A DNA stretch of 64,000 bases from Vulcanimicrobiota bacterium (GTDB lineage: Bacteria > Vulcanimicrobiota > Vulcanimicrobiia > Vulcanimicrobiales > Vulcanimicrobiaceae), in contig JAAXCX010000002.1 in assembly GCA_013036105.1 (NCBI GenBank), positions 148,118-212,117 of the forward strand, written 5' to 3'. This document shows positions 30,858-43,184 of this stretch, in pieces. The number at the start of each line of letters is the position of its first letter. Positions within the stretch are counted from its first letter, which is position 1. Below the pieces are notes generated by a model. It was given only the letters and a program-made list of their open reading frames with translations. It did not search any database and was not told the origin of the DNA. The position numbers and the translations under genes are program-made.

Positions 30858-31003
30858 TTCAGCATGCTCTGCAGAGAAACCGGACGCTGCGAGGGCGCAG
30901 GTTTCGGCTGCATCGCTACCGCCTCGGCGTCTTCGAGCATCAGTACGAAACGCAACCGCCACGCGCCCAGCGCCAGTGAAAACTTCATTCCGAACAGGTC
31001 CAT
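30854..31003 (-). CDS. 49-residue microprotein at the end of the GntR/ABC operon
   Basis: GGAGG lies 8 bases before ATG 31003, within the end of the permease gene region (permease TAA at 31007-31009). The product reads MDLFGMKFSLALGAWRLR, a hydrophobic-aromatic N-terminus, then an acidic turn and a Pro/Gln-rich tail that ends SLQSMLN. It may be an amphipathic, membrane-associated accessory of the transporter. The stop overlaps the convergent binding-protein gene by 4 bases. I know no family for it. Confidence 0.65.
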   Translation of the reverse strand: MDLFGMKFSLALGAWRLRFVLMLEDAEAVAMQPKPAPSQRPVSLQSMLN

Positions 31004-31006
31004 GAT

Positions 31007-32038
31007 TTAAGCCTCCACCCGGCGCCATTGCAGCACCGCGAGCGCCGCGTACACGACGGTGAGCAGTAAGAGCATAAGAGTCGAGAATTCGATGCTGCCG
31101 ACGACGGTGTGCATTTGCAGTCCGGCGCTTTCCATCGATCCGTGAAACGAGATGTACGCGATTGGATCGATGTAGGCGAGCGGCTGGAAAATCGAGTGAA
31201 TCGTGCGACCGATATCGCTGGAGCTGGTTGCGGTTGCTCCGGCAACACTTGGAATCATCAGCGCCGCCAGCCATCCCAACCCACAGACCAGCCCGAGGCC
31301 GCGCTTGAGGGATGCACTGAACGCCGTCAGGCACGCATACCAGGCGAGCGGCGCTAGCACCGCGAGCCCGATCACCCAAGGAGTGAGCGCATTGGCGTAG
31401 AGATGCGGCCGGACGAACATCAAGACAACGATGAGCGTGAGCGCAAACATCGCAAGCTGAGAAACGACGATCGTTACCATGTCCACCGCGATTGAGGCGA
31501 TGGCCAAACGCTCGCGCGAAACCGGCTTGGTCCACGCAAGCTCCAAATGGCCGTCGTTTTCCTTGGCGAGCACGCCGCCGAGCATCGTTGCCGTCACCAG
31601 CCCGATGATACACGAAATGGCGAACAAGATACCGATGCCGATATTTGCCGACATGTCGCGCACCACGCGAATGTGCGCAACGCCGGAGCGTTGGTTTTGA
31701 TCGATACTGGAATACCCCATCGAGAAATTATTGTGGCTTGGCGCCTCACCAATCGGCATGGTCGCATCCATATGAAAAACTGCTCCGCGCCGCTCGACGA
31801 TCGCGTGCACGTGTTTGAACTTGTCGTCGATGACGGTCTCGACCGTTCCGTCGGGGAGCGTCTTCGTGGTCACGTGCGCGGTCGGCGAGCCTTGCAGCGC
31901 GGTCGCAACACTCTCGGGATTGTGTTCGCTGAGCGCCCACAGCCGCATGACAATTGCCAGCGCCAAGAACACGCCTAAAATGATGGCAACGACGCGCAGC
32001 GCGCGCATTCCGCGCAGCACTTCCGAATAGTAGTACAT
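31007..32038 (-). CDS. ABC-2-type permease
   Basis: The 343-residue protein has one N-terminal helix (LRVVAIILGVFLALAIVMRLWAL), a soluble extracytoplasmic domain of about 130 residues, and then five more helices, among them GIGILFAISCIIGLVTATMLGGVLA. The motif KPVSRERLAIASIAVDMV is typical of ABC-2 exporters. Its start overlaps the ATPase stop by one base. The large outer domain after helix 1 recalls YtrC/D and bacitracin-type permeases. Likely role: export of, or resistance to, a peptide or lipid-linked substrate. Confidence 0.85.
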   Translation of the reverse strand: MYYYSEVLRGMRALRVVAIILGVFLALAIVMRLWALSEHNPESVATALQGSPTAHVTTKTLPDGTVETVIDDKFKHVHAIVERRGAVFHMDATMPIGEAPSHNNFSMGYSSIDQNQRSGVAHIRVVRDMSANIGIGILFAISCIIGLVTATMLGGVLAKENDGHLELAWTKPVSRERLAIASIAVDMVTIVVSQLAMFALTLIVVLMFVRPHLYANALTPWVIGLAVLAPLAWYACLTAFSASLKRGLGLVCGLGWLAALMIPSVAGATATSSSDIGRTIHSIFQPLAYIDPIAYISFHGSMESAGLQMHTVVGSIEFSTLMLLLLTVVYAALAVLQWRRVEA

Positions 32039-32943
32039 CAGCGAGCCTCCACGACATCTGCAGTCTGCGAACCGGGCGAGACGGCATTGAGAAAAATATC
32101 TTCCAAGTTCAAGTCAACGATCCGCACGCTCTGTGCGCCCATACTCGAAAGCGCCTCCGCCAGACCGCCGCCGTCGGCGGTGACCGTCAGCCGAAGAATG
32201 CGGCCGGATTGATCGAGCCGCTCGATGCGTGCGTCGCGGCGCAAGCCGTCCAGCGCGATCGTCTCGGAAGGGAAGATTCCTTCGACGATCTTGCGATCGG
32301 ATTTCAAATCGTCCACGGCGCCGGACAGAATCACGCGTCCATTTTGCAGGACGGCGAGATGATCCGCCGCGCGTTCGACCTGACCGATTTGATGGGACGA
32401 GAGCACGATGGTCGCGCCTTGTGCGGCGCTTTCAATAATAAGGTTGAGAACCGCGCGCTGATTGACCGGATCGAGACCACTGGTCGGCTCGTCCAGCACG
32501 AGCGTTTCCGGATTGATCGCGAACGCCATCACGATCGCGAGCGCCGTACGCATGCCTTTGGACATCGCGCGCACGCGTTTGCGCGGATCCAACTTGAACA
32601 GATCCATCAGCTGTGTTGCCCGTTTGGAATCGTAACGCTTGAACGTGCGCCGCTGCATTTCCAGATGCTCGGCCCCGTTCATCCATTCATAGAGAACGCT
32701 GCGTTCGGGCACGTACGAGATGCTTTCGAAAAGCGCCGGGGTTAACTCGTTGCCGTCAAAGCGGACCACGCCCGAACTCGTGCGCGCCAGCCCCAGCAGG
32801 CATTTGAACGTCGTCGTCTTGCCGGCCCCGTTGGGTCCGAGCAGGCCGAAGACGGAACCGGTCGGGATCTCGATGGTTACGTCGTCGACGGCCAGAAATT
32901 TTCCGTACGACTTGCTCAAATGTTCGATGGAAATGGTGCTCAT
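32038..32943 (-). CDS. ABC transporter ATP-binding protein
   Basis: ATG 32943 overlaps the GntR stop (ATGA) and has CCGGAGG upstream. The 301-residue protein is intact: GPNGAGKTT (Walker A), MSKGMRTALAIVMA (signature variant SKGM), LVLDEPTSGLDP (Walker B) and LSSHQI (H-loop). The C-terminal 90 residues form the extra domain usual in ABC-2 drug or peptide exporters (YtrB/CcmA-type). It works with the neighbouring permease. Confidence 0.93.
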   Translation of the reverse strand: MSTISIEHLSKSYGKFLAVDDVTIEIPTGSVFGLLGPNGAGKTTTFKCLLGLARTSSGVVRFDGNELTPALFESISYVPERSVLYEWMNGAEHLEMQRRTFKRYDSKRATQLMDLFKLDPRKRVRAMSKGMRTALAIVMAFAINPETLVLDEPTSGLDPVNQRAVLNLIIESAAQGATIVLSSHQIGQVERAADHLAVLQNGRVILSGAVDDLKSDRKIVEGIFPSETIALDGLRRDARIERLDQSGRILRLTVTADGGGLAEALSSMGAQSVRIVDLNLEDIFLNAVSPGSQTADVVEAR

Positions 32944-33335
32944 TTTTCCTCCGGAAACCACCGCGTCAGTGCGGACTCAAAGAGTTCGCGCACGCCGGCG
33001 GCGGGTAAACCTAACGATTTTGCTTCACGGACCGCTTGTGTCACCGCTTCGCCCGCAACGTCGGTCGCGGCGCGAGTCTGTTTGGCGACTCCATCCGCCC
33101 GCACGAACGAGCCACGCCCCGGAGCCGTCTCGATAACCGCATCGTGCTCGAGGTCGCGGTACGCCCGCGCCACCGTGTTCGGATTGACGGTCAGATCGAC
33201 GGCAAGTTGTTTGACCGTAGGCAGTTGCTCGCCGGGAGCGAGGACGCCGAGGGCCACGGAGCGTTTGACTTGCTCGATGAGTTGGAGGTAGATCGGAACG
33301 CCGCTGCGCGGGTCTACCGTGAATATTGCAGGCAT
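32940..33335 (-). CDS. GntR-family regulator, YtrA type
   Basis: The 131-residue protein has an N-terminal winged helix (VPIYLQLIEQVKRSVALGVL, QLAVDLTVNPNTVARAYRDLE) and only a short C-terminal dimer segment, the layout of the YtrA subfamily that controls adjacent ABC transporters. AGGAG precedes ATG 33335. The likely operator is the palindrome at 33483-33494. In Bacillus, YtrA-type operons respond to cell-wall-active peptides; the signal here is unknown. Confidence 0.9.
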   Translation of the reverse strand: MPAIFTVDPRSGVPIYLQLIEQVKRSVALGVLAPGEQLPTVKQLAVDLTVNPNTVARAYRDLEHDAVIETAPGRGSFVRADGVAKQTRAATDVAGEAVTQAVREAKSLGLPAAGVRELFESALTRWFPEEK

Positions 33336-33346
33336 GGCCGGCTCCT

Positions 33347-33451
33347 TTAGAGCTTCGGACCCCAGCCTAGGAACAGGCTTCCCTGGTTCGAGAGCGGGAA
33401 GCTCGGGCTGCGACGCTCGGTCGCTTCTTGGAAGTTGATGGGGAACGTCAT
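33347..33451 (-). CDS. 34-residue peptide with C-terminal F-x-GWGPK motif
   Basis: This is the first gene after the operon promoter. AAGGAG lies 7 bases before ATG 33451, and the stop is followed by the GntR ribosome-binding site. The peptide has an N-terminal MTFPINFQEATERR, a Ser/Pro-rich middle and ends GSLFLGWGPKL. A second small gene 5.1 kb away (38593-38739) ends SGVFSGWGPKA. No signal peptide is visible. With a GntR regulator and ABC-2 transporter in the same operon it may be a substrate, signal or immunity peptide. I know no described family with this ending. Confidence 0.7.
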   Translation of the reverse strand: MTFPINFQEATERRSPSFPLSNQGSLFLGWGPKL

Positions 33452-33482
33452 TTCGCTTCTCCTTAGAGTACCAATACGCTGT

Positions 33483-33527
33483 TGTACTAGTACACTAGTA
33501 TAATAGCACGAAACTCCCCGTCGTCAA
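33483..33527 (-). promoter_or_regulatory. Promoter and operator of the peptide/GntR/ABC operon
   Basis: On the minus strand, TTGACG (33527-33522) and TATTAT (33505-33500) are 16 bases apart, a near-consensus promoter. Immediately downstream lies the perfect 12-base palindrome TGTACTAGTACA (33483-33494), over the expected transcription start, where a GntR repressor would block initiation. The leader to the peptide start is about 35-45 bases. Confidence 0.7.
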
Positions 33528-33610
33528 CCCCCTTTGCGAAACTTTTTGGTCTCGCGGGGCACCTGTGCCAAGAGGCAGCCAAAGGGGTCGGATAGCAATT
33601 TACAGGGGCC

Positions 33611-33662
33611 TTGCCTATAAGGTGGGAGGCGTCTATTATAGTTTGGACTAGCGAAACTATAA
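33611..33662 (+). promoter_or_regulatory. Promoter and operator of the fic gene
   Basis: TTGCCT (33611-33616) and TATTAT (33634-33639) are 17 bases apart. An inverted repeat, TTATAGTTT (33636-33644) and AAACTATAA (33654-33662), overlaps the -10 box and start site. The Fic protein has a C-terminal winged-helix region, so autoregulation is plausible. Confidence 0.65.
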
Positions 33663-33673
33663 CATTAAGGTCC

Positions 33674-34843
33674 ATGATACGAGAAAACTTTACTCCGCAG
33701 GCGCCTGGCCGCCTGGTAGATTTTACCGACGAACGGGGTAATAAGGGCGTTGCTTTTCTACCGGACCAGCTGCCTCCGAAGTTCGATGTCGGATCAAAAG
33801 CGATCCGCATAGCGCTATCTCATGCAGACCGGGCTCTGGCGCTCCTCGATGGCGTCGCCCAACATCTTCCAGACCCGCAGAGTCTCTTCCGAAGCGCACT
33901 AAATCGCGAAGCGCTGATGTCAAGCAGAATCGAAGGCACGAGGACGACGCTGGGGGATCTCGCTCTCTTCGATTTGACTCAGAGGCCGGACCATGATGCC
34001 GTTGCCGTTGCTAGTTACGTCGAGGCTTACAAGTATAGCCGCAAACGTTGCAATGACATTCCCTTTGGACTTGGACTGTTGTGTGAAATTCACAACGTCC
34101 TTATGCGAAACATCGAGCCAGAAAAAACCACTCCGGGCCGCTTGCGCGATCGCACGGTGCTTATCGGAATGCCTCCGCCGTCACAAGCGCAATTTGTTCC
34201 GCCGCCCGCAGAGTTCGTCCGTGAGCTTACTGAAGATTTGGCATCTTATCTGGAAAGCAATGATGAGCCGCCTCTGATAAGGCTCGCTGTGGCGCACTAT
34301 CAGTTCGAGACCATCCATCCATTTCGCGACGGAAACGGGCGCGTTGGACGCATCATGATATCGGCGTGGCTTGAATGCCAAGAAATCCTAACGGCTCCGA
34401 TGCTTTACATTAGTGCTTTCTTTCAACAACGTCAGGAAGAATACTACGACAAACTCTTAAGAGTTAGCACTCGCGGGGCATGGGAAGATTGGGTGCTTTT
34501 TTTCCTAGAGGCAGTAACCACGCAGTCTAAGGATTCTGCGGCACGAGCGAAGTTGTTGGCCGGTTTACGTACACGTTACCATGCGCTCGTGGAGAGCACC
34601 AAGGTTCGATCTCATAAGTCTCACATTCTCGTAGATGCCCTATTTGACGTGCCGGTTATGTCGGTGCCGCGTGCGAAAACTCTGACGGGTATCACGTATC
34701 CCGCCGCAAAGTCGCATGTGCAAAGGCTTATCGATCTCGGAATATTGTCGAAGGAGCCCTTTATTCACAGGGGCGTCACGTTCTACTTTGCTAACGAGCT
34801 CATTGCTGCCGCAGAGCGTCCGCTCGACGAGCAGGAGCTCTGA
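33674..34843 (+). CDS. Fic-domain protein with N-terminal inhibitory motif
   Basis: ATG 33674 gives 389 residues. The Fic core HPFRDGNGRVGR (residues 215-226) is complete, with the catalytic His and phosphate-binding loop. SSRIEG (83-88) matches the [ST]xxxE[GN] inhibitory motif of class II Fic enzymes, which transfer AMP to protein hydroxyls when released. The C-terminus (SVPRAKTLTGITYPAAKSHVQRLIDLGIL) looks like a winged helix. Codon and base use are visibly more AT-rich than neighbours, which suggests recent transfer. A palindromic operator lies over its promoter. It is monocistronic. Confidence 0.92.
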   Translation: MIRENFTPQAPGRLVDFTDERGNKGVAFLPDQLPPKFDVGSKAIRIALSHADRALALLDGVAQHLPDPQSLFRSALNREALMSSRIEGTRTTLGDLALFDLTQRPDHDAVAVASYVEAYKYSRKRCNDIPFGLGLLCEIHNVLMRNIEPEKTTPGRLRDRTVLIGMPPPSQAQFVPPPAEFVRELTEDLASYLESNDEPPLIRLAVAHYQFETIHPFRDGNGRVGRIMISAWLECQEILTAPMLYISAFFQQRQEEYYDKLLRVSTRGAWEDWVLFFLEAVTTQSKDSAARAKLLAGLRTRYHALVESTKVRSHKSHILVDALFDVPVMSVPRAKTLTGITYPAAKSHVQRLIDLGILSKEPFIHRGVTFYFANELIAAAERPLDEQEL

Positions 34844-34855
34844 CTCGAAGAGCGA

Positions 34856-36208
34856 TCAGGCCGGTAGCTTCAAGTATTTCTTGAAGCGGCGGTCGCCGCG
34901 GACCGCATCGAAACGCGGATCGACCGCCATGCGGCCGGCGTTCGGACCGGCGGACTTGAGCATCGCAAGCGCGTCGCCGCGGCGATTCAGGGCGATGAGC
35001 GCGAGGGCGACATCTCCCGAATCGGCCGACTCGGGACCCCGGCGGGCCATGGCCAGCTGCGCCGCGGCCGCGCGAACGTCGCCTCCCCGCGCATAGGCGT
35101 GGGCGAGCAGCGCCGCCGCCTCGCTGCGGCAGCCTGGGCAGATAACGGCGTACCGGCGGAATTCGCGTTCGGCGGCCCCATAATTCCGCATTGCCTCGTA
35201 GGCAAGCCCCATGTCAACGTACGGGTCGGCTCGCTCCGGCGAGAGATCAGAGGCTTCGCGCGCGTAGGCGATTGCCTCGTTGTAACGCCGCGAAAGATAG
35301 GCGGCTTCGGAAAGCCAGGAAAGCGCCGCGGGTGAAACCGGATCGAGCTGCGCCGCTTTGCGCAGCTCGAGGAAGCCTTCGCGAGCTCTTCCCTGCTGGA
35401 CGAGCGCGGAGCCGTACCACTGGTGCGCCGCGGCATAACCCGGATCGAGCGCGATCGCCGTACGGTACTGTTCGCGCGCGGCAGCCCGCGTGCCGGGCAC
35501 ATCTTCGGCGATCCCCATCGCGGCGTGCGCCTGGGAAAGTTGCGGATCGAGTTTGAGCGCGGTACGCGCGATCGCGCGCGCCGTCGCATACGTTCTCTTC
35601 ATCGGTGCGTAGCCGTAATCGCCTTCGATCGCATAGGCTTCCCCCAGCGCTGCATATCCGCGCGCATTTTTTGGATCGGACGCGATCACCGCGCGAAAAT
35701 ACCGGATGCTCTTTTGTACGCTCGCTTCCGTGCGCTGCTTCCAATAATAGGTCCCCATCGCGAGGAGGCGCTGGCCGTTGGCGCTCAACTCGGAGGGCGC
35801 CGGCCGGGAACGCGCGGTGCCGTGGACGAGCGTGAAACTGAGTGAAATCGCAAGCGCCGCGGCTGCGGCAACGTATTGCCACCGCACGGCGGCGCGATGC
35901 GGGGCCGGCGACGTGGAGACCGCGCCTGTAAAAAGATAGCCGCGGCGCGGAACGGTCTCGATGCAATCGGTCCAGTGAGCGCGCAGAACTTTCCGCAGCA
36001 CGTAAACGTTTTGCGCGAGGTTGCCTTCCTCAACGAACCCTTCTGGCCAAACGAAATCGAGCAGCTCGCGCTTGGCGAGCACCTGCCCCGGACGTTCGGC
36101 GAACGCGAGCAGCGTGCGCACGACTTTCGGGCCCAGCGGCAAAGGACGCTTGCCCACACTCAGGAGCAAGCGCTCGGAGTCGAGGCGGAACGGTCCAAAG
36201 TACAGCAT
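34856..36208 (-). CDS. Membrane-bound winged-helix regulator with TPR domain (CadC/ToxR-like plan)
   Basis: Residues 1-95 form an OmpR-type winged helix (LGPKVVRTLLAFAERPGQVLAKRELLDFVWP, VYVLRKVLRAH, ETVPRRGYLF). One membrane helix follows (YVAAAAALAISLSFTLVHG), then about 300 residues of TPR repeats outside the membrane. This plan is common in Acidobacteria and related phyla: DNA binding inside, protein or peptide contact outside. It is divergent from the DUF5916 gene, 57 bases between starts, and so a candidate regulator of it and of the peptide gene beyond. The end is 12 bases from the fic stop. Confidence 0.88.
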   Translation of the reverse strand: MLYFGPFRLDSERLLLSVGKRPLPLGPKVVRTLLAFAERPGQVLAKRELLDFVWPEGFVEEGNLAQNVYVLRKVLRAHWTDCIETVPRRGYLFTGAVSTSPAPHRAAVRWQYVAAAAALAISLSFTLVHGTARSRPAPSELSANGQRLLAMGTYYWKQRTEASVQKSIRYFRAVIASDPKNARGYAALGEAYAIEGDYGYAPMKRTYATARAIARTALKLDPQLSQAHAAMGIAEDVPGTRAAAREQYRTAIALDPGYAAAHQWYGSALVQQGRAREGFLELRKAAQLDPVSPAALSWLSEAAYLSRRYNEAIAYAREASDLSPERADPYVDMGLAYEAMRNYGAAEREFRRYAVICPGCRSEAAALLAHAYARGGDVRAAAAQLAMARRGPESADSGDVALALIALNRRGDALAMLKSAGPNAGRMAVDPRFDAVRGDRRFKKYLKLPA

Positions 36209-36265
36209 TTTGATGGCTTTCTGAAGACGGCGAAACCGGTGAAAGATTAATTTAGTAGTTGAAAT

Positions 36266-38542
36266 GTGGAGTATCCTCTGAAGTTTTCGTCATGCCTGAG
36301 CGCGAGCGCCATGCTCGCCGCCGTGCTCCTTGCCGGGTCGCCCGCCCGCGCGTCGGTCGTTGCTACGTTGCAGCTTCCGGCTGTAAAAGCGCCGGCGCCG
36401 CCGCCGCTCGATCCGTCCATTCCGGCGGCGGCGTGGACAGCCGGTGCCATTCCCGAATCGGGCGGTTTTGAGGATCTGACGACGCGCACGATCGCACCGC
36501 ACGCTACGCAAGTGTGGATGATGTATGACTCGCGCAACCTCTACGTCGCCTTTCGCGCCGAGCAGCGCGGCACGCCGATCACGGCGACGCAGGCGACCAA
36601 CGACGTCGGCTTCGGCAACGACGATTTCGTGGGCGTCGAGCTCGACACGAGCGGATCCGGATCCAACGTGTACTTTTTCGAAACGACGCCGCGCGGCGCG
36701 CGCTACGAGCAGGCGAGTGAAAATGCGCGCTACCGTCCCCTCTGGCAATCCGCCGCCGCGATAAACGGCGACTCGTGGAGCGCCGTCATGATCATTCCGC
36801 TCGACGTGCTGCGCATACGCGGCGGGGCCAACCAAACCTGGCGCATCAATTTCATTCGCAACGTCGCGGCGCCCGCGGAACACTATACGTGGGCGTACGA
36901 TGGCGTTATGCAGGACGGCCAGGTCGGCAATCAGTTCCCGCTGTTTTCCGACGCCCGTTTTTGGCCGTCGTGGACCGGCATTACCACCGGCGCAACGGCG
37001 GCGGCGAAACCGAAGCCGCGCGCTGAACTCTACACGCTCGAAACGCTCGGCCGGGATCGTAAACTTTTTCAGCAAGCCAACGGGCAGTTTTTGCCCGAAA
37101 CGGTGCGCGTTGCCGGTCTCGACGTCAGCTATCCGCTGACCAGCACGATCAACTTCGTCGGCACGGTGAACCCGGACTTTTCAAATGTGGAGATCGATCA
37201 GCAGACGATCGCGCCGCAAGAGTTCCGGCGCTTCTTGCAAGAGTATCGTCCGTTTTTCTCCCAAGGCGCCGCGTTTCTCAATCCCAATCAGGCGCCGGCG
37301 GGCGGAAATGAACTCTTTTACTCTCCGTCGGTCGGTCCGTTCGACCGCGGTGAGAAGGTAGAAGGCACGTTCGGCCGCCAGGCATTCGGCGTACTGAATT
37401 TCCGCGGCTACGATCAAACAACGGGCAATACGTTCGACGACACGGCCTTCGGTTACACGCACACGCTGCAAGACCGCACCTTTCTGTGGTGGGCCGACGG
37501 CGTGATGGCGCACCACAGCGTCTTCGGCGACGACACCTCGCTCGAAGCGGGCATCAAAGGGCGCAACCTGAAGAACGGCTTCGTATACGGCGTCAACGAT
37601 GCGAGCGAGCACGGTTCGTGGGTTCCGGGCGGCGTCGCGCACAGTCTGAACGGCTTCATCGACGTGCACAAACCGAACTACGAGTGGAATCTCGACTACA
37701 GCGACATTAGTCCAAATTACAACCCCCTAGATGGCATCACCGCCAATTCGGATATTCACGGTTTCAATTTCTTTGGAGATGCCGGCGGCTCGACGAAGGC
37801 GGTAAAAAACTTCATCGTCTTCGTGAACGCCGATCGCTTCTTGGACCGCTCGGGTGCGGTGCATCAATCCGATGCCAGCATCTCTCTGAACGCTACGTTC
37901 AAGAACGCTTTTTCGATCGGCCTCGGTCCGTCGATCGACGAGTTGCGCAGTTATTCGCTCGTCGACCCGGCCGGTTTTCATACCAACTGCAACGATCCGA
38001 ATCTTCCGCGCTCGTATTTCACGGGGTTCCCGGGCTATTTCTGCGGACGAACCGACACGTTCAGCCTTGCAACGGTAGCGGTGGGCTATCGCGACGGAAC
38101 CGCCACGCCGGTCGATTTCCAGACAGCCTATGGAAAGTTCGGGTTCGGTTTTGTCGGACCCAACGACAACGGGCCGGACTACATGCACATTTATTCATTC
38201 ACGACGTCGCGGCCGCTCGGGCGCATCTTCTCGTTGGGATTGGAGTACGACGGCAACTTCGAACGCGCGATGACGACCGGCGCCTTCGATTCGCAATGGC
38301 TGCGACGTATATCGCTCGGCGCGCAACTGGGGCCGTATGAAAACTTCACGATCTCGTTGCGCTCGGTCAACGGGCGCGGCGGCTTTTCGCCGCCGGGCGT
38401 CAATCTGGCGGCGGCCTATCACCACCGGTTCCGCACCGGCGATGAGCTGTTCCTCAATTTCGGAACGCCGGCGGCGGCACGCACACTCGACCGTTTTGTG
38501 GTCAAGTATCTCTTTCGGTTCGGCGGCGACGCCGGAACGTAA
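36266..38542 (+). CDS. Outer-membrane DUF5916 protein with CBM9-like domain
   Basis: GTG 36266 begins a signal peptide (CLSASAMLAAVLLAGSPARA). Residues about 40-215 resemble the carbohydrate-binding family 9-like domain (WMMYDSRNLYVAFRAEQ, DDFVGVELDTSGSG). Then comes the DUF5916 hallmark GTVNPDFSNVEIDQQ with EYRPFFSQGAAFLNP, and a beta barrel with aromatic girdle up to the C-terminal FVVKYLFRFGGDAGT. The function is unknown, but this architecture is a surface or outer-membrane protein. The small GWGPK peptide gene follows after 41-50 bases on the same strand. Confidence 0.85.
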   Translation: MEYPLKFSSCLSASAMLAAVLLAGSPARASVVATLQLPAVKAPAPPPLDPSIPAAAWTAGAIPESGGFEDLTTRTIAPHATQVWMMYDSRNLYVAFRAEQRGTPITATQATNDVGFGNDDFVGVELDTSGSGSNVYFFETTPRGARYEQASENARYRPLWQSAAAINGDSWSAVMIIPLDVLRIRGGANQTWRINFIRNVAAPAEHYTWAYDGVMQDGQVGNQFPLFSDARFWPSWTGITTGATAAAKPKPRAELYTLETLGRDRKLFQQANGQFLPETVRVAGLDVSYPLTSTINFVGTVNPDFSNVEIDQQTIAPQEFRRFLQEYRPFFSQGAAFLNPNQAPAGGNELFYSPSVGPFDRGEKVEGTFGRQAFGVLNFRGYDQTTGNTFDDTAFGYTHTLQDRTFLWWADGVMAHHSVFGDDTSLEAGIKGRNLKNGFVYGVNDASEHGSWVPGGVAHSLNGFIDVHKPNYEWNLDYSDISPNYNPLDGITANSDIHGFNFFGDAGGSTKAVKNFIVFVNADRFLDRSGAVHQSDASISLNATFKNAFSIGLGPSIDELRSYSLVDPAGFHTNCNDPNLPRSYFTGFPGYFCGRTDTFSLATVAVGYRDGTATPVDFQTAYGKFGFGFVGPNDNGPDYMHIYSFTTSRPLGRIFSLGLEYDGNFERAMTTGAFDSQWLRRISLGAQLGPYENFTISLRSVNGRGGFSPPGVNLAAAYHHRFRTGDELFLNFGTPAAARTLDRFVVKYLFRFGGDAGT

Positions 38543-38592
38543 CGAAACAAATGTCATATCGCGCCGTATAACCATGCGGTAGGATGATGATG

Positions 38593-38739
38593 ATGAAAAA
38601 CAATATGAACGAGCGTGAACCGCTCAGCCAGCTTGCGTTGCCGGAGAATAACACTCCGAGTCCGACGATCTTGAGCGAACGCGTTACGACAATTCCGACA
38701 CCTTCAGGCGTTTTCTCGGGCTGGGGCCCTAAAGCTTAG
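38593..38739 (+). CDS. 48-residue peptide with C-terminal F-x-GWGPK motif
   Basis: Four consecutive ATGs (38584, 38587, 38590, 38593) follow TAGGA. ATG 38593 gives the best spacing to AGGA and a 48-residue peptide; 38584 would add three Met. It begins MKNNMNEREPLSQLALPEN, has a Thr/Pro-rich middle and ends SGVFSGWGPKA. The ending repeats that of the peptide at 33347-33451 although the rest differs. There is no signal peptide. It lies downstream of the DUF5916 gene and overlaps the end of the convergent GNAT gene by 11 bases. Confidence 0.65.
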   Translation: MKNNMNEREPLSQLALPENNTPSPTILSERVTTIPTPSGVFSGWGPKA

Positions 38740-39241
38740 ACAGATCTCGCCAGCCGTAGAGGTGTTCGCGGTATGCAAAACCGTCGATCTCTTCGGTAGT
38801 TTGGCAGATGACTTGCGCGCCTAACTTTTCGTAAAAGCGCCGCGCCTGGGTGTTATCCGACAAAACTCGCAGCCACGCAGATTGAAAGCCTTTAGCTTGC
38901 AGCGCCGTACCCGCGGCGCGGAGCAGCCTTTCCCCAAGGCCTTGACGTTGCGCTTCGGGCAGCACGTAGATCGCGCCGATCTCGCCGTCGAAGCCGTCCA
39001 CGGGTTCGCTTGAGGCCAAGCTTGTCGCGAATGCGACGACCGTCCCGTGCGCATCGCACGCGACGAACACGTCCTCTTGGCCGGCGTGCAAACGATCGTT
39101 CCATTGGGCCGTGCGCAACGCTATGGTCCGCCGGTCGAGGTGTTCTTGCGGCAGAAGCCCCGCGTACGCGGCGTGCCACGTGCGAACCTGGACGGCCGCG
39201 ATGGCGGCCGCATCTTCGAGCGATGCGCGCCGGATAACCAT
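38729..39241 (-). CDS. GNAT-family N-acetyltransferase
   Basis: The 170-residue protein has the GNAT fold: VIRRASLEDAAAIAAVQVRTW at the N-terminus, IGAIYVLPEAQRQGLGERLL with the acetyl-CoA-binding QRQGLG loop, and WLRVLSDNTQARRFYEKLGAQ. Such enzymes acetylate amines, amino acids or protein termini; the substrate is not readable. The gene follows the NIPSNAP-type gene after 2 bases and overlaps the end of the convergent GWGPK peptide gene. Confidence 0.9.
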   Translation of the reverse strand: MVIRRASLEDAAAIAAVQVRTWHAAYAGLLPQEHLDRRTIALRTAQWNDRLHAGQEDVFVACDAHGTVVAFATSLASSEPVDGFDGEIGAIYVLPEAQRQGLGERLLRAAGTALQAKGFQSAWLRVLSDNTQARRFYEKLGAQVICQTTEEIDGFAYREHLYGWRDLSKL

Positions 39242-39243
39242 GA

Positions 39244-39549
39244 CTATGCTCGTTGCAAAATCGAACGGTCTTCGTTCAGGATGCAGCCCGCACGCTCGAT
39301 GCGCGCGACGTTAGCGAGCGCCTCGGCATCTTGGCCCAGTCTTTCCCGATAGCGCCCGTACGCGGCAAGGTTCTCAAAGTCGATCAGCGCCAGCGCGAAA
39401 TTTGTCGGGCCGGCGATTCGGGTCGGCAGGTAGTAGCCGACCAGCTTGCCGCCGCAGCGCTCGATCGTTTCCGGCCATGCCTTCGCATAGGCTTCAAAAT
39501 CCGAAAGCTTGTCGTGGTCGAGCGTATAGCGAATGCAGAGTGTTATCAT
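39244..39549 (-). CDS. NIPSNAP-family protein
   Basis: ATG 39549 with GGAGGA upstream gives 101 residues: MITLCIRYTLDHDKLSDFE, YYLPTRIAGPTNFALALIDF and NLAAYGRYRERL. This is the dimeric alpha/beta-barrel fold of NIPSNAP proteins, small cytosolic proteins of unclear function often beside enzymes. It precedes the GNAT gene by 2 bases and is probably co-expressed with it. Confidence 0.8.
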   Translation of the reverse strand: MITLCIRYTLDHDKLSDFEAYAKAWPETIERCGGKLVGYYLPTRIAGPTNFALALIDFENLAAYGRYRERLGQDAEALANVARIERAGCILNEDRSILQRA

Positions 39550-39626
39550 GCTGTCCTCCAGCAATTCGTTCTCATAAAAGCCGCGCGGGTCTTGCTAGCA
39601 CCTGATATCTTGCGTACAATCCAGCT

Positions 39627-40169
39627 GTGTCGCCCGAATGGCTAACCGCGGTTTCGTCGCTGCTGACGCTGCTCGTCGTCGCCGCATCGGTCGTGGCTGC
39701 GCTCATTCAGTTGCGGCACATGCGGGGCGGCAATCAAATCACGGCGCTCAACGAGATTCGCGAAACGTTCGAGTCGGAAAAGTTCCGAACGGCGATTTTA
39801 TATGTCTATCGCGAATTACCGCCGCTCTACGCCGATCCGGCCGTGCGAGCCGAGTTGGTCGCGGTCCCGTTGCCGGCCAAATACGAGCAAGCGCGCACGG
39901 TCGCGAATTTCTTCGAAAACGTCGGTTTGTTTGCGAAGCGTGGAGTCTTGGACCGATCGTTTACGGCGGACATGTGGGGCGACATCATTCTCACCGCGTG
40001 GCTGCGCCTCTCTCCGATGATCACGAACAGACGCATTGCGACGAAAACGCCGGCGTTGTGGGATAACTTTGAATTCATCGCGGTGATCTGCAAGCAGTTC
40101 AAGGAGGCTCACCCCGAGGGCGCGTATCCGAAGGGTATCGACCGCATGCCGCAATCCGAACTGTGGTGA
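39627..40169 (+). CDS. Membrane-anchored DUF4760-like protein
   Basis: The 180-residue protein has one N-terminal helix (LLTLLVVAASVVAALIQLRHM) and a cytosolic helical domain: ALNEIRETFESEKFRTA, ARTVANFFENVGLFAKRGVLD and the C-terminal WDNFEFIAVICKQF. This layout matches the DUF4760 family, whose function is unknown. The start is GTG 39627. It lies 1 base before a secreted hydrolase gene. Confidence 0.65.
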   Translation: MSPEWLTAVSSLLTLLVVAASVVAALIQLRHMRGGNQITALNEIRETFESEKFRTAILYVYRELPPLYADPAVRAELVAVPLPAKYEQARTVANFFENVGLFAKRGVLDRSFTADMWGDIILTAWLRLSPMITNRRIATKTPALWDNFEFIAVICKQFKEAHPEGAYPKGIDRMPQSELW

Positions 40170-41853: not shown

Positions 41854-42488
41854 CGTGTGTTTTCCCGAACGATGCGATCCACCATCGCCGGCGGTATTCC
41901 TTGGGGCAGTGTCTCCATGAAGATGTTTCCGTGCTTCCAGCGGCGCAGCGGAAGCGTCCACGTGCGATCGTGTATCCGCCCGTCCTTTCCCTTGAATAGG
42001 GCCTCGAAGTGCGCGACGGGAGGGCCGCTGACGGCCGTCGTCTCGTTGATGTTGATTCGGTAATACTCCGCGCCGATCTGGGTTTGGTAAAGCAGCGCAA
42101 CGCGTGGAATCGGGTGTTCGCTTACGACGTGGGCATATTGAAATATCGTGTGCGGCGGCAATCCAGCCGGTACGACGATCGTAAATGGCATGTGCTGCTG
42201 CGCTTGCGCGATCGTGAGCCGGTCGGCGCGGTGAATAAGGGGCGGCAACGGTTTCACCGACCCTTGGAAGAAACGCGCGAAGCCGTCGGGTAGCACACCG
42301 GAGGCCTGACCGGCGACGCCCGCGCTAACGAAGACAACGAGTACCGCGCATGCGTACGCCCAGCCAAGCGATCGCGGGCGTGGCCTGGCGGATTGCGCCG
42401 GCCGCCACGGACCATGCGGACATTCCGGGACGACAGCCCGCGCAAATCGCCGCTCGAGCGCCGCTTCGATGATCTGGCTTTCATTCAT
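41850..42488 (-). CDS. Probable anti-sigma factor, membrane protein
   Basis: The 212-residue protein has a short cytosolic N-terminus, a membrane helix (AYACAVLVVFVSAGVAG, about residues 44-60) and a periplasmic domain (MPFTIVVPAGLPPHTIFQYA) like DUF4367 domains of anti-sigma factors. The start overlaps the stop of an ECF sigma factor gene (ATGA), which is the main reason for the call. A zinc-binding HxxxCxxC motif is absent. Confidence 0.65.
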   Translation of the reverse strand: MNESQIIEAALERRFARAVVPECPHGPWRPAQSARPRPRSLGWAYACAVLVVFVSAGVAGQASGVLPDGFARFFQGSVKPLPPLIHRADRLTIAQAQQHMPFTIVVPAGLPPHTIFQYAHVVSEHPIPRVALLYQTQIGAEYYRININETTAVSGPPVAHFEALFKGKDGRIHDRTWTLPLRRWKHGNIFMETLPQGIPPAMVDRIVRENTR

Positions 42489-43048
42489 GATACTGTCTCC
42501 TGTGCCGTTGCCGGCGCGGTTGAATCCGAGAGAAGTGGCCGCAAGCGGTGACGCGCGATCATTAGGCGGAAACGCACGGTCGCTGCCGGTACACCGAGTG
42601 CAACGCCGACTTCCCCGCTTGTTAGACCGAAGAAATAGTAAAGTTCCAGCGGCAGACGCAGCGACGCGGGCAGCATAGCGATCGCCGCTTCGAGATCGAG
42701 CCGCGCAATCGGCTCATCGCGCGTCGACACGCCGCTCGCTGCTTCGTAGCCGACCGCCTCTCGACGCAGTAAACGAGATCTCGCGCGAGCGTGGTCGCGT
42801 GCGTGCGAAACGATGATCCGAGTTGACCAGCCGGCAAACGCACGCACGTCGGAAAGAGTCTGAAGTCTTGCGCAGATGGTGGCACAGGCAGCTTGGGCGG
42901 CGTCTTGTGCCGCGCAGCGCTCGCCGAGGATCGACCAAGCAATTCGGTATGCGTTGGGCCACAGCGCGCGAATCAGGGCGTCGTAGGCCTGTTCATGCCC
43001 ATTCAGGGCGGCGATCGCCAAATCCGAGAGCGGGGCGCGATCCTTCAT
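42485..43048 (-). CDS. ECF-type RNA polymerase sigma factor
   Basis: ATG 43048 gives 187 residues with region 2 (AYDALIRALWPNAYRIAWSILG, AQDAAQAACATICARL) and region 4 (LPASLRLPLELYYFFGLTSGEVGVALGVPAATVRFRL). The region 2 core is divergent (AQDAAQAA rather than the usual AEDLVQE). An upstream in-frame extension would run into the tRNA gene and is rejected. The overlapping downstream gene is its likely membrane-bound antagonist. Confidence 0.88.
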   Translation of the reverse strand: MKDRAPLSDLAIAALNGHEQAYDALIRALWPNAYRIAWSILGERCAAQDAAQAACATICARLQTLSDVRAFAGWSTRIIVSHARDHARARSRLLRREAVGYEAASGVSTRDEPIARLDLEAAIAMLPASLRLPLELYYFFGLTSGEVGVALGVPAATVRFRLMIARHRLRPLLSDSTAPATAQETVS

Positions 43049-43100
43049 ACTATATAAGACGCCGGCTCGCGACGAAGTGTTTGTGCAGCGTCGATAAATC

Positions 43101-43184
43101 TGCCCAGAAAGGGACTCGAACCCCCACGGCCTTGCGGCCACTGATACCTGAAACCAGCGCGTCTACCAATTCCGCCATCTGGGC
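43101..43184 (-). tRNA. tRNA-Leu (anticodon CAG)
   Basis: On the minus strand the acceptor halves GCCCAGA and TCTGGGC pair, the D-arm has GGCGGAATTGGTAGACGC, the anticodon loop is TTCAGGT, a long variable arm (TGGCCGCAAGGCCG) marks a type II tRNA, and the T-arm has GGTTCGAGTCC. CCA is not encoded. It reads CUG leucine codons. Confidence 0.95.

Follow-up and report, generated by a model that had tools for sequence, protein, structure and literature searches.

In E. coli, the small anti-adaptors IraP, IraM and IraD are induced by different stresses and meet at one target, and in streptococci the ComS/XIP and SHP precursors are short, leaderless peptides whose active part is the C-terminal end. 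In Bordetella, the upstream open reading frames (ORFs) of the CruR (DUF2946) kind encode a small protein that heads many operons, bears a C-terminal RAPP motif and follows a copper theme, as described in PMC9426467. In this work, we have analysed two short genes in a 64,000-nucleotide stretch of the genome of a Vulcanimicrobiota bacterium (contig C2, positions 148118–212117, of the 2.34-Mb genome G000; the whole stretch is called here the window), which code for different peptides with the same C-terminal ending, F-x-GWGPK-x. Our results show that both peptides belong to one undescribed family, whose members occur in the majority of genomes of two related families of bacteria. We propose, with a probability of roughly 0.42, that the members of this family are trans-acting intracellular peptides produced from several stress regulons, and that their C-terminal tail docks on one common partner.

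A conserved C-terminal tail in two short genes

Peptide gene 1 (minus strand, 33347..33451; type A in our classification) codes for 34 aa ending in GSLFLGWGPKL, and peptide gene 2 (plus strand, 38593..38739; type C) for 48 aa ending in SGVFSGWGPKA; the tails FLGWGPKL and FSGWGPKA are encoded at 33350..33373 and 38713..38736 of the same strands, respectively. Both genes begin with ATG behind a Shine-Dalgarno sequence (AAGGAG at 33459..33464, minus strand, and AGGA at 38581..38584, plus strand). Coordinates, endings and good ribosome-binding sites are thus as described in an earlier reading of this DNA (the original prediction), which also held the shared ending to be unlikely by chance. This is borne out by pattern counts. 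The pattern G-W-G-P-K-x-stop, in which position −8 and the final residue were left free, occurs exactly twice in the 2.34-Mb genome, in the two window genes, and 33 times across 26 of 60 genomes (the window's own included), versus 0 and 2 matches, respectively, of a reversed-pattern control. In every translated copy (31/31) position −8 is F, and the last residue is L, I, F or A. Since the counts exceed those of the reversed control and the free positions are kept in the 31 copies, a chance resemblance of the two endings was rejected.

Short ORFs with this ending recur in related genomes, as the original prediction implied. We searched 149 Vulcanimicrobiota genomes, 113 of them from the families f1 and f3 and 36 from others. 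With F required and K loosened, 77/149 genomes match, all within the 113 f1/f3 genomes and none among the rest (0/36). When P at −3 was also loosened (F-x-G-W-G-[P/V/I]-x-[L/I/F/V/A]-stop), 98/113 f1 and f3 genomes match, a figure that may include a few chance matches, and the other 36 genomes give 7 matches in 6 genomes against 9 reversed-control matches, which is the control level. A scan of 84,980 species genomes, restricted to the K variant of the motif, matched 45 contigs, namely 35 from Eremiobacterota, Eremiobacteria or Eremiobacter (Candidatus Eremiobacterota is Vulcanimicrobiota in the NCBI taxonomy), 4 labelled 'bacterium' only and 6 from other phyla. Three of the 'bacterium' contigs (L229, L234 and L235) match the positions of the copies in G114, G102 and G103, and the fourth (L207) holds a typical peptide; the six matches from other phyla are reading frames without further resemblance to the peptides. 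When 5.8 billion proteins were searched with a profile, 324 matches were obtained at E up to 10, and among the 120 of these that were listed the motif is the exact C-terminal end in 120/120. Among homologues of gene 2, P0007 has one extra alanine and in P0006 the tail is absent.

In agreement with the original prediction, no described family was found in NCBIfam, in the annotation of homologues or in the literature. The NCBIfam scan of both window peptides returned 0 families. The precomputed Pfam annotation is empty for 5/5 and 120/120 of the homologues listed (the window peptides themselves were not scanned with Pfam), and every readable product name among these homologues is 'hypothetical protein'. 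Judged by titles and abstract openings, a literature search for GWGPK or GWGPR in 5.39 million papers found nothing on the family (the GWGV and GWGI forms were not searched), and one for small proteins of Eremiobacterota found nothing on point.

Conservation was followed in a set of 85 copies selected for diversity. They come from the window and 77 fetched regions and encode 83 distinct peptides; L249, L252 and L253 were left out for a doubtful start or context. The F, G, W and G columns of this set were fixed by the search pattern, so that their invariance in it is not independent evidence, which comes instead from the 31 copies with a free −8 (for F) and from the 120 listed homologues (for the end position). 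The predicted motif F-x-GWGPK-x is real but too narrow, because position −3 is P in 69 copies, V in 15 and I in 1, position −2 is K in 44, R in 33, S in 3, T in 3 and Q in 2, and the final residue is L in 34, I in 28, F in 9, A in 7 and V in 7. Codon choice varies synonymously where F, G, P and K are encoded, and each of the three stop codons is used. In close orthologues of equal length, the changes are exclusively synonymous, as expected under the coding selection implied by the original prediction: 3 synonymous and 0 non-synonymous between gene 1 of the window and L115, and 3–5 synonymous and 0 non-synonymous for gene 2 among L020, L022 and L023. The wider pair of the window and L025 has 9 synonymous and 7 non-synonymous changes (dN/dS 0.18); for pairs of unequal length dN/dS was computed without gap alignment and was not used. 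The tail is conserved at the protein level, at the very end of the peptide, and conservation is strongest there, at a fixed distance from the stop.

The peptide bodies diverge between copies and are hydrophilic, with weak conservation upstream of the tail (P at −16 in 41/85, R at −18 in 34/84 and V at −19 in 32/84). The length is 31–52 residues in 84/85 peptides, the other one being L260 (17 residues), whose start is uncertain. No hydrophobic stretch was found in the 85 copies, the highest 15-residue Kyte-Doolittle mean being 1.33. For peptide 2, AlphaFold modelling on 53 aligned sequences gave neither secondary structure nor a fold (mean predicted local distance difference test score, pLDDT, 63.2; predicted template modelling score, pTM, 0.15), as expected for a linear motif. 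The original prediction had offered the tail as the functional core of a secreted signal or toxin or as a recognition tag; nothing shows secretion or toxicity, and the recognition tag comes closer to what we observe.

Genomic settings, upstream elements and peptide loss

Most of the 85 copies head an operon, and the operons are of at least six kinds, as judged by Pfam profile matches of the neighbours. Type A copies (40/85) lie immediately ahead of a GntR gene, mostly followed by an ATPase and a permease, and the gap to the next gene is 3–20 nt in 37/40. In the window, peptide gene 1, which has orthologues in the genus, is the first cistron of what is apparently one operon on the minus strand. 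It is followed, in this order, by a GntR-family repressor gene that begins 11 nt past it (32940..33335; PF00392, 54 bits; also with orthologues), an ATP-binding cassette (ABC) transporter ATPase (32038..32961; PF00005, 86.6 bits) and an ABC transporter permease (31007..32038), assigned by its operon position and a weak PF12679 match (19.8 bits) that does not reach the cut-off of 27.2. Type B (11/85) comprises nine copies immediately ahead of a DUF4097 'Toastrack' gene followed by DUF6249 and two immediately ahead of DUF6249; this operon is divergent from genes for an extracytoplasmic function (ECF) sigma factor, a response regulator and a histidine kinase, and its DUF4097 protein scores 37 bits with the LiaG profile, whose cut-off is 285. 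Downstream of other copies are BlaI and then a BlaR1-type M56 gene (3/85), a VOC/glyoxalase gene (4/85), PadR (2/85), an ECF sigma factor gene (2/85, one at 247 nt), a calcineurin-like phosphoesterase gene (2/85) and, in single cases, a diguanylate cyclase and a ParA/Mrp gene. The next gene has no Pfam match or was not scanned in L064 (where it is STAS-like by eye), L097 and L264, it is 1303 nt off in L257, and L260 lies at a contig end.

A convergent neighbour follows 14/85 copies; three of these (L256, L259 and L263) overlap an ORF of 37–47 aa, which leaves 11 stand-alone copies: type C (window gene 2 and L114–L116), L070, L084, L110, L121, L255, L258 and L261. Frames of 20–45 codons near L084, L255, L258 and L261 are taken as chance, and in L070 and L121 a hairpin and a T-run stand directly 3' of the peptide gene. 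The second ORF of L256, L259 and L263 overlaps the peptide stop in an ATGA and has the common pattern L..Q/A.R.I..LR.

The elements upstream of the peptide genes differ by copy group, each with its own putative binding protein; 923 non-peptide genes of the same regions served as background. A TACTA[AGC] box is found within 95 nt upstream of every type A copy (40/40), at least two TACTA[GAC] boxes precede 28/40 of them versus 1/923 other genes, and TTGAC lies upstream of 38/40. For gene 1, the predicted GntR operator, TACTAGTGTACTAGTAC, occupies 33484..33500 (minus strand), and a predicted sigma-70-type promoter, read from the sequence, 33500..33527 (minus strand; −35 TTGACG at 33522–33527, −10 TATTAT at 33500–33505, 16-bp spacer). 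The ECF-type element GAAAC-N16-CGTA is upstream of 15/85 copies (the 11 of type B, three of type C including window gene 2, with L116 lacking it, and L089) versus 3/923 other genes, two of which occupy the divergent sigma factor position. The three BlaI-linked copies have an upstream BlaI-like repeat and share TTAGTTGACA and CAACTAA with the lone L084. AGGTTA or TAACCT boxes occur in eight copies, mostly from the GWGV group of family f3, and several of these adjoin a gene of the ABATE/CGNR regulator cluster.

Gene 2 of the window starts 50 nt past a DUF5916 gene (36311–38542), with a predicted ECF-sigma promoter (GAAAC-N16-CGTA, 38544..38568, plus strand) in the gap, and a convergent GNAT gene overlaps its stop. 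An ECF-sigma-like gene 4 kb past it (42485–43141, minus strand), which might drive this promoter, shares 29% identity with the sigma factor of the type B operon. A conserved type B ECF sigma factor was not found in the window's genome, where the best match is 35% identical. The order DUF5916-then-peptide was seen in the window and L114–L116 only, all of the window's genus. The GntR/ABC and DUF5916 neighbours pointed out in the original prediction are therefore real, although direct linkage to GntR holds for 40/85 copies and the DUF5916 arrangement for those four regions. DUF5916 genes were also seen near copies of different types, in 11 regions (L246–L248, L087, L095, L106, L114–L116, L262 and the window). 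Besides the DUF5916 gene, a winged-helix-TPR regulator, c5 (34856–36208, minus strand), and a Fic/DOC-family gene (33611–34843, plus strand; PF02661 and PF13784) lie between the two peptide genes; the latter was not picked when a gene caller based on codon usage was trained on this set of regions, and may therefore be a recent acquisition. An Rfam search of the window from 31000 to 40000 gave no match.

In the genus g21, the type B operon keeps its promoter and the DUF4097 gene while the tail has decayed. Since clades lose the peptide yet keep the promoter or the next gene, the peptide is an add-on that the next gene does not require. Decayed or truncated type B peptides, with the ECF-type promoter intact and the DUF4097 gene kept, were seen in L273, L274, L271, L277 and L279, those of L277 and L279 being truncated remnants.

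These settings bear on a first alternative, in which ribosome stalling by the tail, at or near the stop, would control expression of the next gene, in the manner of CruR and its RAPP motif. Small first cistrons with a C-terminal end conserved at a fixed distance from the stop, the short gap to the next gene in type A, the P at −3 in 69/85 copies and the CruR precedent itself would all fit such a nascent-chain leader. We nevertheless consider it unlikely, because 11/85 copies have nothing downstream to regulate, P at −3 is replaceable by V or I, a search for an attenuator at the stop of the type A copies revealed no RNA structure (mean z 0.22, n = 40), and clades drop the peptide and retain both promoter and next gene.

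Co-distribution with GntR and other candidate partners

At a threshold of over 150 bits, a GntR orthologue is found in 100/113 f1 and f3 genomes and in 0/36 others. Within f1 and f3, 93 genomes have both GntR and the peptide, 7 (all g25) have GntR only, 5 have the peptide only and 8 have neither. The peptide-only genomes are G005 and G019 (locus at contig end), G074 (68% complete), and G012 and G031, in which no GntR orthologue was found. Another 40 GntR regions were fetched; in 5 no repressor start was located, L187 contains a distant paralogue and no peptide, and the copy in L191 was already known. Among the remaining 33, 23 have the peptide, always as a GWG[VI] variant, and 10 do not, eight of them from g25, in which the operator lies directly against GntR, and two being second copies in G120 and G017. 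In G106:C32, G080:C227 and G082:C144 the GntR match holds one in-frame stop, which may reflect a broken repressor or an assembly error.

A leaderless peptide beside GntR and ABC genes in 40/85 copies, together with this co-distribution, recalls the phenol-soluble modulins (PSMs) of Staphylococcus aureus, which bind the PmtR repressor and free its promoter, as described in PMC5080381. The peptide, or its C-terminal octapeptide, might thus be the substrate of the ABC transporter, a ligand that releases GntR or a ComS/XIP-like pheromone, and the window GntR and ATPase do score 64.4 and 127.9 bits with the PmtR and PmtA profiles. This possibility is doubtful in our view, as both scores are far under the NCBIfam cut-offs (200 and 350), g25 has GntR without peptide and no GntR orthologue was found in the peptide-bearing G012 and G031, the bodies are hydrophilic unlike the amphipathic PSMs, and no receptor gene was identified among the neighbours scanned (no genome-wide Rgg/RRNPP search was made). 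The same genomes, g25, G012 and G031, weaken GntR as the sole partner.

The short precursor and the conserved Trp and Lys/Arg at its end could also suggest a ribosomally synthesized and post-translationally modified peptide, modified in trans, the more so as the L097 copy lies two genes ahead of a YcaO gene. This is very improbable: YcaO occurs in 46/149 genomes, in 0/7 of the window's genus and in 9/10 of the peptide-less g25, and no shared modifying enzyme was found among the neighbours scanned, the genome-wide search having covered YcaO only. The idea of YcaO as the common modifying enzyme, taken from L097, is thus disfavoured by its genome distribution. Regulator c5 was likewise considered as a receptor and is disfavoured by its distribution: with E up to 1e-90, the peptide-bearing G070, G071, G085, G086 and G011 (91–95% complete) lack it, and all 10 peptide-less g25 genomes have a match. 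In about 20 regions, relatives of c5 lie close to type A peptides.

A possible docking peptide and its closest parallels

Three facts lead us to favour a docking peptide over both the exporter-linked signal and the arrest leader. Copies that stand alone, and peptide losses in which the next gene persists, argue against a leader that acts purely in cis; the contrast between a fixed end and a drifting body favours a short linear motif over a folded protein; and the pairing of one tail with different promoters suggests that many inputs reach a single recipient. We propose that different stress regulons, when switched on, would each make their own small peptide of the family. As copies lie behind predicted promoters of GntR, an ECF sigma factor, BlaI and others, the peptide level could report regulon activity. 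The tail, with its free carboxylate, may then be a trans-acting short linear motif that binds a shared partner in the cytoplasm; tail binding might block, recruit or deliver this partner, and many stress inputs would be joined to one output, by analogy with IraP, IraM and IraD on RssB in E. coli. In a more specific form, which we advance with less confidence, several unrelated antibiotic- and envelope-stress regulons of one bacterium would each make a disordered peptide with its own body and the same docking tail, and any of the stresses would engage one effector. To our knowledge, a shared-tail peptide code of this kind is known from no other organism.

Several points weigh against this proposal. 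No partner was found among the candidates examined: YcaO and c5 fail the distribution test and GntR, whose co-occurrence with the peptide is partial, passes it in part. Most copies closely precede a gene, as a cis leader would (3–20 nt in 37/40 of type A). Positions −7, −3, −2 and −1 vary between copies of one genome, and a single partner must tolerate this variation. In addition, the regulators bound at the upstream elements are inferred, and the peptides are known here from their genes alone.

What is the significance of the family? It ties together regulators normally studied apart (GntR-ABC, ECF sigma factors, BlaI-BlaR1, PadR and LiaG-like operons). Should the tail have one partner, a shared stress-response branch of a poorly studied phylum could come to light; should it instead stall ribosomes, a new arrest motif would have been found. 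The claim to a wholly new kind of system rests on the trans reading.

Among the described systems, CruR is alike in that a small protein with a conserved C-terminal motif is encoded at the head of many different operons. It differs in having RAPP and one theme (copper), whereas here the tail is F-x-G-W-G-[PVI]-x-[hydrophobic], with no RAPP-like motif in the tails of the 85 copies, the regulators are unrelated and 11/85 copies stand alone. The PSM/PmtR/PmtABCD system shares with type A a small peptide, a GntR-type repressor and an ABC transporter, and its peptides can bind the repressor (PMC5080381); here, however, the peptide gene leads the repressor operon, the peptide keeps only its tail and it occurs in other regulons. 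YtrG is also a small protein of unknown function heading a GntR-ABC operon linked to envelope antibiotics, but it is a small transmembrane protein, and 0/85 copies here have a hydrophobic stretch. ComS/XIP and SHP, the subject of PMC6211226 and PMC5167397, resemble the family as short leaderless precursors. The family differs in its location in several kinds of stress operon and in that the scan of the neighbours showed no RRNPP-type receptor (no genome-wide search was made). IraP, IraM and IraD reportedly bind RssB in distinct modes (PMC4428439), whereas in the family described here the common tail is the shared part.

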